IMG/VR virus record: IMGVR_UViG_3300007165_000007
Span: 1-31,624 of that record
Source: a virus
DNA: 31,624 nucleotides
Reading direction: 5' to 3' (one strand)
Positions 1 to 11,627 of this stretch are shown here, in pieces (position 1 is the first letter of the stretch; every line of letters begins with the position of its first letter). Below the pieces are notes generated by a model that saw only the letters and a program-made list of their open reading frames with translations, was not told the origin of the DNA and made no database searches. The position numbers and the translations under genes were made by a program.

Positions 1-256
1 TTGGGCTAGTCTACGTCGGGTTGCCCCAAGCAAAATTTCCGAACCTTGCACGCATCGCAGTGTTGGCGCGGGTTTGCGGCAGTTTCTACGGGCGGTCTCT
101 AGCTGTTGGCAGGTCTGCATGGATGCAAGGACAGGCAGGCCGTAACGTGCTGAAAACTAACACGTTGGTGCTTTAATGCAAACTGATTGATTCTCAGTGG
201 GTTAGTCTACTTTCTCCACCGAGCGGAGACAAGTTTACAGGCATTTGGGTGGGTGC

Positions 257-283
257 GGTCGGCAGGTCGGCAGGTCGGCAGGT
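257..283 (+). repeat. Triple tandem 8-bp repeat GGTCGGCA
   Basis: Three perfect head-to-tail copies of GGTCGGCA occupy 257-280, followed by a partial copy (GGT). They lie directly upstream of the hairpin array. A related GGTCGGC occurs again near 560. Iterons of this kind are typical protein-binding sites, but the binding protein is unknown. Confidence 0.85.
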
Positions 284-294
284 TGCACAGGAAC

Positions 295-402
295 ACAACT
301 GCGCGGTTGTATGATGGCACAACTTGTTTGGTTGTATCGCGGCACAACTTGCATGGTTGTACTATATCACAACTGCCTCGTGTGGTTGTATCCTTACACA
401 AC
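295..402. repeat. Array of four ACAAC...GTTGT hairpins plus a half-site
   Basis: Inverted repeats with arms ACAAC and GTTGT lie at 295-310, 319-335, 344-360 and 369-389. A fifth left arm at 398-402 has no right arm. Left arms start 24, 25, 25 and 29 bases apart. Loops differ (6, 7, 7 and 11 bases) while the arms are invariant, and the spacers between units are 8 bases, two of them ending in GGC. This is a regular array of small palindromes, suitable as binding sites for a dimeric protein or as extruded DNA or RNA hairpins. Confidence 0.85.
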
Positions 403-416
403 GCTGCGCCCCGCAT

Positions 417-435
417 TGTTCCACAGATGTTCCAC
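417..435 (+). repeat. Two TGTTCCAC direct repeats, 11-bp period
   Basis: TGTTCCAC occurs at 417-424 and 428-435, exactly one helical turn apart, so both copies face the same side of the DNA. The first is followed by A (TGTTCCACA), two mismatches from the classical DnaA box TTATCCACA. A link to the DnaA-like protein encoded at 7757-8242 is only an inference. Confidence 0.55.
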
Positions 436-606
436 GGCCTGTCTTTCTATCTATATCCCTGACACACAGGTAGTTAGCCGATGACAGGTAACCGATTGAT
501 AGTCAGCTAGTTAGACCCCACCCCCTTTGCTGATTTGACTTCGGGGACGGGTCGTGGCGGTCGGCTGGGTGGGGGTGACCCCAACCCTTGTTGATCAATG
601 ATTTTT

Positions 607-637
607 TTTGATTGTTATGTGCATCCGTGTATATTTG
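607..637 (+). promoter_or_regulatory. Promoter for the small-gene operon (Bacteroidetes type)
   Basis: TTTG at 607-610 and TATATTTG at 630-637 are separated by exactly 19 bases, a perfect match to the Bacteroidetes -33/-7 consensus. The first ATG is at 651, giving a short leader. It should drive the rightward genes from 651 to 2449. Confidence 0.85.
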
Positions 638-650
638 TAAAAAAAAGGCT

Positions 651-809
651 ATGCGATACGCTTCAGAGGACTTTATGGCGAACATGTACGGGAAGTACAG
701 TCCTGCTAAGATGTTGGTAAAGAACAGGGCTAGAAAGGCCCAGGAGGAGATGGAGGCCAAGATTCTTAAGGACGCTGAGGTTGATCACGAATGTGGCTGT
801 AAAAAATAG
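651..809 (+). CDS. Small charged protein, function unknown
   Basis: A 52-residue protein beginning MRYASEDFMANMYGKY and ending HECGCKK. I chose the ATG at 651 because it lies 13 bases after the -7 box; the frame is open further upstream only across the promoter. The middle is a basic and acidic helical stretch, and the C-terminus has a Cys-x-Cys pair. It is the first gene of the operon, 3 bases before the next ATG. I do not recognise the family. Its compact charged composition resembles the other tiny proteins of this operon, which may bind DNA or be packaged in the virion, but nothing in the sequence proves this. Confidence 0.7.
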   Translation: MRYASEDFMANMYGKYSPAKMLVKNRARKAQEEMEAKILKDAEVDHECGCKK

Positions 810-3169: not shown

Positions 3170-3175
3170 ATGTTG

Positions 3176-3245
3176 TGGAGAGACCAGGAGTCGAACCTAA
3201 CTCTTTGGGATTTCACCCCAACGCATACCACTATGCTATCACTCC
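3176..3245 (-). tRNA. tRNA-Phe (anticodon GAA)
   Basis: A 70-base cloverleaf: acceptor GGAGTGA/TCTCTCC (one T-T mismatch at position 5), A73, D arm GCAT/ATGC with GG in the loop, anticodon stem TTGGG/CCCAA with loop GTGAAAT giving anticodon GAA, variable loop AGAG, and T arm TTAGG/CCTGG with loop TTCGACT. CCA is not encoded. The D loop is short and position 32 is G, which is unusual. It is the only member of the cluster with a normal anticodon arm. Confidence 0.75.
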
Positions 3246-3516: not shown

Positions 3517-3533
3517 TTCTCCGTAGTCAGGAC

Positions 3534-3616
3534 AGGACTCGAACCTGTAAAAAGGTAGGCTATGTACACTTGCCGTTTGAAGAACACTTGCAATTACTCA
3601 TTTCTGCCACCTGACT
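3534..3616 (-). tRNA. tRNA-like gene, possible tRNA-Leu(CAA)
   Basis: An 83-base element with perfect acceptor AGTCAGG/CCTGACT, A73, T arm ACAGG/CCTGT (loop TTCGAGT) and a D stem GCA/TGC. Length suits a class II tRNA with a long variable arm. The best anticodon loop is TTCAAAC (CAA, Leu), but only 3 of 5 stem pairs form; a shifted loop CTTCAAA would read UCA but has almost no stem. The D loop lacks the usual GG. GCAAGTGT is directly repeated on either side of the anticodon loop, suggesting a duplication damaged it. Confidence 0.45.
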
Positions 3617-7583: not shown

Positions 7584-7836
7584 CTTCTATTTTTTTAAGT
7601 TCATTAAAGTGTCCACTGAGCCAAAGGTACATATCATTGCCGGTAAGCTCATACAACCTCACGTTAATCAATTTCATTAGCGACTGATCACGGGCGTATT
7701 TTTTCTTCGGCTTATGAATACCTGCCTTTGGGTATTCCATGTCGTCAGTGAGTAGCTTATGCCTCAAATTCCGAAGGTGTTGTAACTCTGTCAGCGTCGA
7801 CGGAGTAGGCGGCAAGTATATTGGGGTTCCGTTCAT
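7570..7836 (-). CDS. Small helical protein, function unknown
   Basis: An 88-residue protein: Pro-rich start (MNGTPIYLPPTPSTLTELQH), then helices LRNLRHKLLTDD and DQSLMKLINVRLYELTGNDM followed by YLWLSGHFNELKKIED. The ATG at 7836 implies an 80-base overlap with the DnaA-like gene; a second ATG at 7740 (MEYPKAG) would remove the overlap and leave a 16-base gap. I keep the longer form because the extra part continues a regular helix, but the short form is quite possible. No family recognised. Confidence 0.6.
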   Translation of the reverse strand: MNGTPIYLPPTPSTLTELQHLRNLRHKLLTDDMEYPKAGIHKPKKKYARDQSLMKLINVRLYELTGNDMYLWLSGHFNELKKIEDGQN

Positions 7837-8242
7837 TGAAAAAGTCTAATAAAAGTTCTTGTTTGGTTTGGTCTAGTTCGGCTATGAAGTGCCTTATTTT
7901 TTTCCTTCTAATTGTATCGTACTGGTAGTCGGTGCGGAGGGTCTTCAAAGCATGGCAAACCGTTGCGTGATCCCTGTCCACAATCCTAGCAACCTGTGCA
8001 AGGGTCTTGGTGCTACATACCTTGATCGTGGTCATAAACATTTGCCTTGCAAACACTATGTCTGCGTACTTCTTTCTTCCCTTAATTTCACCGGCAGGTA
8101 CCTCAAAGTGTTTGCTAACCTTTTCAAGAATATCATTTTCTTGAGGGTTATCTACCTTGTGCAGGTATTCGTAAATCTTTGTGAACTCCGATCGTTTGTT
8201 TACGTGGACTAAATCCACTAAGTCTTTGAATGTGTATCTCAT
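7757..8242 (-). CDS. DnaA domain-IV-like DNA-binding protein
   Basis: A 161-residue protein. Residues about 40-106 match DnaA domain IV: VSKHFEVPAGEIKGRKKYAD (basic loop), IVFARQMFMTTIKVCSTKTL, AQVARIVDRDHATVCHALKTL. R-D-H-A-T-V-C-H-A at 89-98 corresponds to the DnaA signature DHTTVLHA, which contacts the DnaA box. There is no ATPase domain; the N-terminal 40 residues and C-terminal 55 are unlike DnaA. It could bind the phage origin, or occupy host DnaA boxes and block host initiation. It lies downstream of SSB with an inverted repeat between. Confidence 0.8.
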   Translation of the reverse strand: MRYTFKDLVDLVHVNKRSEFTKIYEYLHKVDNPQENDILEKVSKHFEVPAGEIKGRKKYADIVFARQMFMTTIKVCSTKTLAQVARIVDRDHATVCHALKTLRTDYQYDTIRRKKIRHFIAELDQTKQELLLDFFNERNPNILAAYSVDADRVTTPSEFEA

Positions 8243-9016: not shown

Positions 9017-10987
9017 TTATTCCCATGCCTCTTTATACCCGTTTGGATGTGCTACGTCCTCGTTCCATTCTTTCGCTTCCTTCGAGTCCGTCCAGTTCCT
9101 GTTAGGTTTTATTGCTGTTGGCTGTTTGATCTCGGATTGAACATATTTTCCATCGATCGCCTGCTGTAAATAGTCTACCCCATCAAATGTGAATCTGCGA
9201 GTAGATCTTACAAGTTCAAAGTCGAAGAATCCCTTTACACCAACGATCTTCTGTCTGCGAATCTTCTTTGAGTGAAACTCACACAACGGACTTTCAGGCG
9301 CAGTCTGAGCAAACGGACGGTGGTAGATGATTATGTTGTCGGCCTTGTTGTTCCACATCGCACCATCGGCAAGATCAAATACTTCTGGACATGGGTAGTT
9401 GCCGTCGTCAGCCTTACGCATTTTGTGCGGGTGGACCACAATGTCAAAGTACACGTTGTTCTTTCGGGCAAAGCGCGTGCAGTCCGAAAGGAAGGTCTCA
9501 AGGTACTTGTCGCTACGTCCACCACCCTTGCTGTAGTCGTTTGCCATCTGATTGAACGGATCTATGATTACTCGGTCTACTCCGTGTTTGATAATCATGC
9601 TGAGGAAAACCTCCTTTACGTAATCGGGCGTTGGGCTTACGTTCTTGGGGTACACCATGAAGATGTGTTCTCCGATCATCTTGTACACCTTCATGTAAGC
9701 ATCGTAACTTGGCCTGTTGTAGTTGTTGGGTGTGCAGTCCTTACCAAAGTAAATTTCCACAAGGTCATGGTAGAACTGCTCCGCCGGCAATTCCTCAGGG
9801 GTAAAGATGGCGACCTTCTCCCCAAACTTTACCATGCGGAATATCATCTCCCACTTCATGAACGATGACTTACCATAGTTTCCTATTCCGGAAACAATTG
9901 TTAATTCACCCTTGACCCTCTTGAAGTGCTTGTCGAGTAACGGAACACCAAGTGGCATAGCGGCTTGATAACCCTTGAGGTAAATCTCTGAAGCCTGTTC
10001 TATTACCTCTTCAGCGTAGATCACGTCCTCCTTGCTCATCTCATCGAGATCATTCTGTGTAAGATCAATCTTGACCTCCACGTGGTTAGTCTTGCTAACC
10101 AACTGGTCCTTGGTAAACTCGGCCGTGTTCCATTGATTCATGTTAGCCCTGTACGCACTGCGAATGGCTTGTCGGCACTCCTTTTGACTAAAGCTAGAGT
10201 CGGGGGTGACGTGCGTCATCATGAGGTTGTAGCAGGTCTCCTCCATCATCCCGAATCGGCAGCAGCTTGCGGCCAACTTGAACACAAAGTGATTCCTTTC
10301 ACCCTCACGGAACGCGTCACCCTTAGATGTCATCCACGTCAAAAGGTTTTGGAATATCTTGTCGTCGTCGTTAATCGTCTCGGTAGTTGTCTGTTGGGGC
10401 AACCTCCTGTCTGACTTTTTTACGGGTAACTTCTTGTAGGTTTCCGCAAGCGGATTGTAGTATAAATTAGGATCATACGACTCAAAGCACAGACGAGAAA
10501 CATTGCGTCCAGTCTTGTCAATGTCTGGCAAATCATTCATTAAGGCATCAAAATGCTCTTTATGCATGGTTTTCCATTCAATTTGGACGAGCGCTTTTAA
10601 GCCCTTTCCTGACGGTGAAATCCAAACTGCCGTAATGTGGCTTATAGAACACAATTCGTTACGTTTTTGGGTTATATCTGACACGTTATCAAAGTCCAAA
10701 ACGATGTATCCGGAGTGTTCAAGTAGTTCAGAATCCTTTCTCTTGGAAAACGTGCCACTAAAACATACTGCTGGCAGCTTCTTCTTTAACTCGTCCGCCT
10801 CTTTCTTGGTTTTGGCTTCCCTCGCCTTTTCAACAAGTGCCTTTGATTTTCCAGACCTAATTCGTTCAAGTGCGCCCAGTACACTAATCTGGTGTCCTTG
10901 CAGGTCGTTGAAGTCTTTGTAGATGGATACCTTACCATTTATTCCTTGGGTCATTTGGGTCATAGCTGTAATTAGTTTGTTTTGCAT
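9017..10987 (-). CDS. Primase-helicase (BT4734/VirE-N-like domain plus DnaB-like helicase)
   Basis: A 656-residue replication enzyme. Residues about 20-190 resemble the VirE N-terminal/BT4734-like domain common in Bacteroidetes (KLPAVCFSGTF, then YIVLDFDNV with D98 and D100 as probable catalytic acids, SPSGKGLKALVQ, RLCFESYDP). Residues 205-290 look like a PriCT-type helical linker. Residues 340-600 are a RecA-fold helicase: Walker A GIGNYGKS (367-374), Walker B RVIIDP (D476), VVHPHK. It would unwind and prime the phage replication fork. Start: ATG at 10987 overlaps the initiator gene by 56 bases; ATGs at 10963 or 10954 would shorten the overlap. Confidence 0.85.
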   Translation of the reverse strand: MQNKLITAMTQMTQGINGKVSIYKDFNDLQGHQISVLGALERIRSGKSKALVEKAREAKTKKEADELKKKLPAVCFSGTFSKRKDSELLEHSGYIVLDFDNVSDITQKRNELCSISHITAVWISPSGKGLKALVQIEWKTMHKEHFDALMNDLPDIDKTGRNVSRLCFESYDPNLYYNPLAETYKKLPVKKSDRRLPQQTTTETINDDDKIFQNLLTWMTSKGDAFREGERNHFVFKLAASCCRFGMMEETCYNLMMTHVTPDSSFSQKECRQAIRSAYRANMNQWNTAEFTKDQLVSKTNHVEVKIDLTQNDLDEMSKEDVIYAEEVIEQASEIYLKGYQAAMPLGVPLLDKHFKRVKGELTIVSGIGNYGKSSFMKWEMIFRMVKFGEKVAIFTPEELPAEQFYHDLVEIYFGKDCTPNNYNRPSYDAYMKVYKMIGEHIFMVYPKNVSPTPDYVKEVFLSMIIKHGVDRVIIDPFNQMANDYSKGGGRSDKYLETFLSDCTRFARKNNVYFDIVVHPHKMRKADDGNYPCPEVFDLADGAMWNNKADNIIIYHRPFAQTAPESPLCEFHSKKIRRQKIVGVKGFFDFELVRSTRRFTFDGVDYLQQAIDGKYVQSEIKQPTAIKPNRNWTDSKEAKEWNEDVAHPNGYKEAWE

Positions 10988-11627
10988 TTGTATTCGTATT
11001 CGTTGTTTCGTCTTCCCACCTTCTGTCTCGAAGGTATCGCACCGGGTCCTTCCAGTATTTGCGCTCGCGACCGTTCTTGTGGTTTCCCATGCCTTCTACT
11101 GCAAGTGTGCGGTCCTCGTCGGATAGTCTGTTCCATACAGCAAGGGTTTGCTTCTTGTCCACCTTCTTGTCATATGCAAGCCAAAAGTCCTCAAATGCGT
11201 ATTTGTATTTTATTGTTTCTTTGTTGGTATTTGTTTCTTTATATATATCGATGTTACCCGACTGTTGGATATCACCGACAACGGGAAAACCAGATGTCGG
11301 TAAATCCGCTTCTCGGTCAAGTTGGGGTTCATCGTACACAATATGGTTCCAACCCAACATTCTACCTGTAGCAGCATCCATGTGACGGCAACTAAGCACA
11401 TACCCCTTCTCTTGCAGGGACTTAAACACACGGTCAATTGCGTGTTTTCCGTCTGGAAGTTGATCGTACATATTTTTCTTGTAAAGCACCCAATTGTCCG
11501 GAAGCGAAAGAAGGAAGCACATCATTCCCTTTTCTTCCATCGTAAGCTGATTGGATTGTGAGATTTCGTTTGGGATAATCGCAAAGTCATGCTTGCGTTT
11601 CCCTTTAACAATTTGTCCTGTATTCAT
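10932..11627 (-). CDS. Replication initiator/O-like winged-helix protein
   Basis: A 231-residue protein. Residues 1-110 read like the winged-helix N-terminus of phage O/RepA-type initiators: DFAIIPNEISQSNQLTMEEKG, MMCFLLSLPDNWVLYKKNM, AIDRVFKSLQEKGYVLSCRH. A low-complexity linker (NKETIKYK) leads to a C-terminal helical region (FEDFWLAYDKKVDKKQTLAVW, WKDPVRYLRDRRW) found in DnaD-like and helicase-loader proteins, followed by an Asn/Thr-rich tail. It probably binds the origin and loads the overlapping primase-helicase. ATG at 11627 is chosen; an upstream GTG lies inside the terminator hairpin. It sits directly behind a structured leader, suggesting regulated synthesis. Confidence 0.75.
   Translation of the reverse strand: MNTGQIVKGKRKHDFAIIPNEISQSNQLTMEEKGMMCFLLSLPDNWVLYKKNMYDQLPDGKHAIDRVFKSLQEKGYVLSCRHMDAATGRMLGWNHIVYDEPQLDREADLPTSGFPVVGDIQQSGNIDIYKETNTNKETIKYKYAFEDFWLAYDKKVDKKQTLAVWNRLSDEDRTLAVEGMGNHKNGRERKYWKDPVRYLRDRRWEDETTNTNTNAKQTNYSYDPNDPRNKW

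Follow-up and report, generated by a model that had tools for sequence, protein, structure and literature searches.

The principle of operator arrays, and of titration by operators, is established. The lambda O iterons and the lambdoid operator arrays are composed of 18-bp dyads at a spacing of about 23-25 bp, and their specificity is swappable. In Bacteroides thetaiotaomicron, the AraR sites are 21-bp semipalindromes of the form AGTGT-N7-ACACT placed in tandem (PMC4666351). Our search of the open-access literature found no precedent for natural phage operator decoys or for swappable arrays of host metabolic operators.

We analysed a stretch of 31,624 bases (hereafter the window), a linear fragment holding the right half of a phage that is related to many freshwater contigs, which reach about 70 kb. 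Its terminase and portal belong to PHROG families 6681 and 6547, and its distant matches are phages of Flavobacterium, Cellulophaga and Maribacter; it is probably a lytic Bacteroidota phage. Also recorded on the minus strand (3175-3245 and 3524-3616) were a gene for tRNA-Phe and another tRNA match, weaker and seen by Rfam only. The window carries an array that shares with the lambda O iterons and lambdoid operators the 18-bp dyad, a similar spacing and a swappable specificity. In contrast to these systems, it lies outside the initiator gene, the phage's own O-like iterons are located elsewhere, and no cI/Cro-like protein, nor any cI/Xre repressor or integrase of temperate-phage immunity, was found in the phage, whose genome is incomplete in the window.

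Five complete dyads in the window

The array spans positions 282-402 and consists of five copies of an 18-bp dyad with the constant unit GTTGYA-N6-CACAAC:

282-299: site 1, GTTGCACAGGAACACAAC, with one mismatch in the arms
306-323: site 2, GTTGTATGATGGCACAAC
331-348: site 3, GTTGTATCGCGGCACAAC
356-373: site 4, GTTGTACTATATCACAAC
385-402: site 5, GTTGTATCCTTACACAAC

The copies begin at 282, 306, 331, 356 and 385, with start-to-start spacings of 24, 25, 25 and 29 bp; all five are preceded by G, and every copy has an 8-bp centre between 5-bp arms (GTTGT-N8-ACAAC). The preliminary description had reported four ACAAC/GTTGT palindromes with variable loops and a fifth half-site. The motifs are present as it described, with exact ACAAC at 295, 319, 344, 369 and 398 and exact GTTGT at 306, 331, 356 and 385, but its register was wrong: read as ACAAC...GTTGT the loops measure 6, 7, 7 and 11, whereas in the GTTGT...ACAAC register the four exact copies share a centre of 8 bp, and the former loops are the variable spacers between sites. 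The supposed half-site is a complete copy, namely site 1. The constant 8-bp centre in this register and the one-mismatch fifth copy thus give the window five complete 18-bp dyads.

Centres and spacers bear no sequence relation to each other, and this palindrome, which we call type A, forms dyads nowhere else in the 31.6-kb window. A multi-copy dyad of constant geometry with unconserved centres is the pattern that marks an operator array. In keeping with the earlier description, the locus is not a CRISPR array, since the arms alone are conserved and identical direct repeats with unique spacers are absent. Four dyads with identical arms and a constant gap were observed within 130 bp; shuffles of window positions 1-700 gave one such dyad in 299 of 300 cases and two in the remaining one, and shuffles of the whole window gave at most two. 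A chance origin of the array is excluded. The array region is intergenic, in agreement with its first description as non-coding: the first conserved gene begins at 651, and the open reading frames across the array are not conserved as proteins.

The slot and its array types

The homologous intergenic region of relatives was recovered with the sequence itself and with a conserved 20-mer. This region, the slot, is divergent, with the genes on its left running leftward and the small genes on its right running rightward. In the window its elements are, from left to right and with the array between the second and the third:

144-166: left-flank dyad AACGTG-N11-CACGTT, retained by records of types A and B and by some of N
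187-229, plus strand: block TTGATT...GTTAGTCTACTTTCTCCACCGAGCGGAGA, with a promoter-like TTG-N18-TACTTTC and a small hairpin
417-435, plus strand: two direct TGTTCCAC elements, each half of the parS core and also DnaA-box-like
516-587: C-rich/G-rich inverted segment CCCCACCCC...GACTTCGGG...GGTGGGGGTGACCCC, conserved
602-637, plus strand: TTTG-N-TATATTTG, a canonical Bacteroidota promoter serving the cluster of small rightward genes, kept in relatives

Genes for small basic proteins follow the promoter, and in several relatives direct repeats of the form CCAACCATnnTGAGTTTAy lie between the C-rich/G-rich segment and the canonical promoter. The C-rich/G-rich segment with its GACTTCGGG core is kept in most relatives, those of type C (below) included. 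The promoter-like block lies upstream of the array, and a distance of about 200 bp separates the array from the nearest canonical promoter, so that no regulated phage gene can be assigned to the array.

Several features of this neighbourhood are recorded here in their own right. The block consensus TTGATTATCAATrrGTTAGTCTACTTTSTCCACCGnnCGGAGACAA is common to unrelated Bacteroidota phage contigs, at non-homologous places (L266, L268, L269, L271, L272, L275, L280, L284). Two related endonuclease VII/HNH-type genes (929-1471 and 1636-2193) are inserted in the small-gene cluster, and the second has the same opening, MAKSPAW, as DUF6321 in relatives, which gives the impression that it took over the 5' end of that gene. 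The region is also a hotspot of assembly breaks, with many contigs of the group ending within about 1 kb of it (G004, G016, G021, G030, G031, G034, G052), while G014, G015, G024 and G035 continue straight through.

The content of the slot differs among relatives. Type A (GTTGTR-N6-YACAAC) is present in five copies in G000 and two in G035, and in degenerate form in G012 and G030. Type B, AGTGTR-N4-GTACACT (that is, AGTGT-N7-ACACT), has four copies in G029 and G052 and two in G022, G028 and G031. Type C, TATGCAYGCATA, has five copies in G024 and G032 and two, one of these imperfect, in G025 and G026. Type P has no array and instead the parS core GTTCCACGTGGAAC; it comprises 11 records, several of them near-duplicates (G013, G014, G015, G019, G021, L260, L264, L265, L270, L273, L277). 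Four further records have neither an array nor a parS core in the slot (G002, G053, G006, G033).

Between G000 and G052, identity is 89% in the left flank (220 bp), 43% in the array and 69% in the right flank; G029 is similar. The preliminary description had tied its reading to the presence of the motif in close relatives. It is literally absent from G052 and G029, yet a different palindrome array stands in its place. Exact array sites were not found outside the slot in the phage genomes of this group; the array therefore does not belong to a regulon spread over the phage genome. Unrelated phages also carry types B and C, with C arrays in L324, L326, L328, L330, L334-L336 and more. In another phage, B-like and C-type sites adjoin in one intergenic region (L329, 1-150).

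Bacterial counterparts of the array types

For type C, a two-site TATGCAYGCATA pattern occurs in at least 120 stretches of bacterial genomes, nearly all from Bacteroidota among the matches listed. In the cases inspected, the pair usually lies in the promoter of a MarR-family gene (exceptions L344, L339 and L395), and the genes beside that MarR encode FadB (3-hydroxyacyl-CoA dehydrogenase/enoyl-CoA hydratase), an acyl-CoA synthetase or an acyl-CoA dehydrogenase. Among 30 MarR orthologues collected independently by protein search, 24 have an exact TATGCAYGCATA within 120 bp upstream, and 27 have it with at most one mismatch; in shuffled sequence the best match still had three mismatches. Given this occurrence in orthologous MarR promoters and at marR-fadB loci, type C is, with the regulator assigned by position, the operator of a host MarR protein that regulates fatty-acid degradation. 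The Bacteroidota marR-fadB operator is a palindrome near the promoter, usually single or paired, and the exact site stands in the homologous slot of type C phages. The window differs in having another palindrome (type A), in five copies and away from the canonical promoter. In other orders, the orthologous MarR operator was not seen to take the type A form.

Type B has the geometry, AGTGT-N7-ACACT, and the tandem layout of the AraR/NrtR operators of Bacteroides (PMC4666351). In 198 Bacteroidota genomes, the motif is found before ribulokinase and beside Nudix regulators and SusC-like genes; in some genomes with several copies it also lies near glycolytic and other central-carbon genes, with no control matches. 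Over all 198 genomes the excess is modest, about 44 sites against 25 in the control. The published AraR geometry and the host gene positions suggest that type B is most simply the operator of a Nudix regulator. Unlike these operators, type B in phage DNA has at most four copies and no adjoining sugar genes, and it is not the type of the window.

The core found in type P, GTTCCACGTGGAAC, is exactly that of chromosomal parS, in the same region of these relatives. A ParABS system would combine a full parS palindrome with a ParB in the element; the window has only the two direct TGTTCCAC half-elements, and no ParB was found in type P phages (no ParB_N in 21 records). The partition site proposed in the preliminary description thus gains indirect support from type P, but not from the window itself.

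For type A, the type of the window, the chromosomes gave a negative picture. No enrichment was found in Bacteroidota chromosomes (24 genomes, below control), pairs were absent from 395 Bacteroidota genomes, and matches combining operator and promoter were below control. In the Bacteroidota contig L112, a pair (GTTGTA-N6-YACAAC) lies directly upstream of a RelE/HigB-like toxin and an Xre antitoxin, and one of the two sites has the A...C form of the window. In four orthologous RelE/HigB-Xre modules, GTTGTA-N6-TATAAC is located immediately upstream of a TAnnTTTG-like element. Compared with GTT[AG]TA-N6-TA[CT]AAC, the window sites have the same 18-bp geometry and, in four of five, the GTTGTA left arm, whereas their right arm is CACAAC and not TAYAAC. 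Among viral contigs with two sites, pairs also precede a Cro-like gene (L101) and HTH-containing operons (L088, L110).

From these positions, type A resembles a typical operator of Xre/HTH proteins. The best lead for its binder would be an autorepressor of Xre type, for instance the antitoxin of a RelE/HigB module, a link drawn from one exact pair and near-consensus orthologues. The RelE/HigB-Xre operator agrees with the window in its 18-bp geometry and is present in two copies at L112; it differs in overlapping the promoter of its module, whereas the phage array has five copies and no such module. Since the other sites in relatives include host switches of fat and sugar metabolism, the slot gives the impression of an interchangeable landing site for host regulators.

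Candidate binders and possible mode of action

The array is very probably an operator array for a dimeric regulator. Among the functions first suggested for it, a multi-site operator is the best supported, because the slot arrays of relatives coincide with host operators that are known or can be demonstrated (types C and B). The balance tips slightly towards a host-encoded binder, and for type A we infer such an origin. Taken as a whole, the account that we prefer falls a little short of an even chance: the array would consist of operators of a dimeric HTH regulator, probably host-encoded, in a swappable slot, where it would likely serve as a sponge or sensor. More tentatively, we suggest that it acts mainly by titration, with a sponge effect, and otherwise as a sensor of host state. 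Replicating phage DNA would bring hundreds of extra operators into the cell; these would draw the regulator off its own promoters, and host expression would be re-tuned. In a variant, the bound regulator would report the state of the host to phage transcription. Titration fits the anatomy, because it requires no fixed promoter distance, tolerates loss or change of copy number and type, and would grow stronger as phage DNA replicates.

We consider it unlikely that the array instead serves, as operator or centromere, a DNA-binding protein that the phage encodes and that swaps with it, as heteroimmune repressors and plasmid centromeres do. The array types do switch as cassettes within an otherwise conserved region, many early phage proteins have no family assignment, and since about half of the phage genome is missing from the window, a binder encoded there is possible. 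Against this, no protein family in the shared gene set covaries with array type, searches of 21 records for HTH_3, ParB_N and phage integrase gave no match while controls did, and types B and C recur in unrelated phages, C also at a host promoter. The recognisable DNA-binding proteins among the early genes scanned are the following two and, in G024 only, a weak MarR-like protein; no cognate MarR or Nudix regulator was found there.

7757-8242, minus strand: DnaA domain IV-like protein (PF08299)
10932-11627, minus strand: lambda-O-like replication initiator, with a swappable N-terminal HTH domain and iterons within its own gene

Each was rejected as the partner of the array. The MarR-like protein of G024, considered as a type C binder, does not resemble the host MarR and is missing from the other lineage with type C arrays. 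The sequence of the DnaA-like protein does not differ between G030, with an A-like array, and G022, G028 and G031, with type B, so this protein is excluded as the determinant of array specificity. Initiator type and array type are independent, which rejects the initiator in the same role.

A host-regulator sensor of a more specific kind is about as improbable: the bound array would be a roadblock downstream of the promoter-like block, making phage transcription follow host metabolism. The TTG-N18-TACTTTC block is indeed conserved 60-190 bp upstream of array sites, and the regulators assigned to types B and C are metabolite sensors. However, G002 and G053 keep the block without an array, and the block is only promoter-like and also present in unrelated phages.

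Origin iterons bound by a phage initiator, another of the functions first proposed, are a still less probable reading, though one that keeps some likelihood for type A. GTTGT-N8-ACAAC arrays lie inside the O-type initiator genes of unrelated phages (L099, L103, L111), and a distant relative (G057, terminase 38% identical) has seven exact copies of this broader form beside its DnaA-domain-IV and primase-helicase genes; the region also has direct repeats and AT-rich parts. What weakens this reading is the initiator itself. Across the window, G024 (L154) and G035 (L145), it has three interchangeable N-terminal domains. Each type comes with distinct repeats (TGAGCA-N6-TGCTCA in type III), which lie within the gene where the domains join and precede an AT-rich stretch. 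Because the initiator's iterons lie within its own gene, the array is probably not its origin. Moreover, neither initiator type nor DnaA_C sequence follows array type, and several relatives have no array. GC skew, which had been proposed as a check, follows gene strand and is uninformative for the origin. As a separate observation, the initiator domains and their matched in-gene repeats form a modular origin-initiator system.

A structured RNA, a packaging site or chance repeats are very improbable: a 133-nt segment folds better than shuffles (z -3.2) and many contigs break near the region, but the fold is a trivial consequence of inverted repeats and the 2-nt centre of type C cannot loop, which makes hairpins unlikely, the four contigs that run through the region leave no fixed end and terminase-adjacent genes do not track array type either, and chance is excluded by the shuffles.

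Returning to host-encoded binders, a broader proposal is possible but equally as tentative as titration itself, namely that Bacteroidota phages keep a swappable "host-regulator docking array", for fatty-acid MarR, Nudix sugar/NAD regulators, toxin-antitoxin autorepressors or ParB, as a sponge with no protein effector. If true, host metabolism would be taken over by DNA sites alone, and the effect would scale with infection, since further operator copies come with every genome replicated. The proposal would account for the change of slot specificity between near-identical phages, and would point to the host pathways on which the phage depends: fat oxidation, sugar or NAD metabolism, and toxin-antitoxin control. 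The sequence of the slot would then also be a simple means of predicting hosts and of locating the operators of uncharacterised host regulators.
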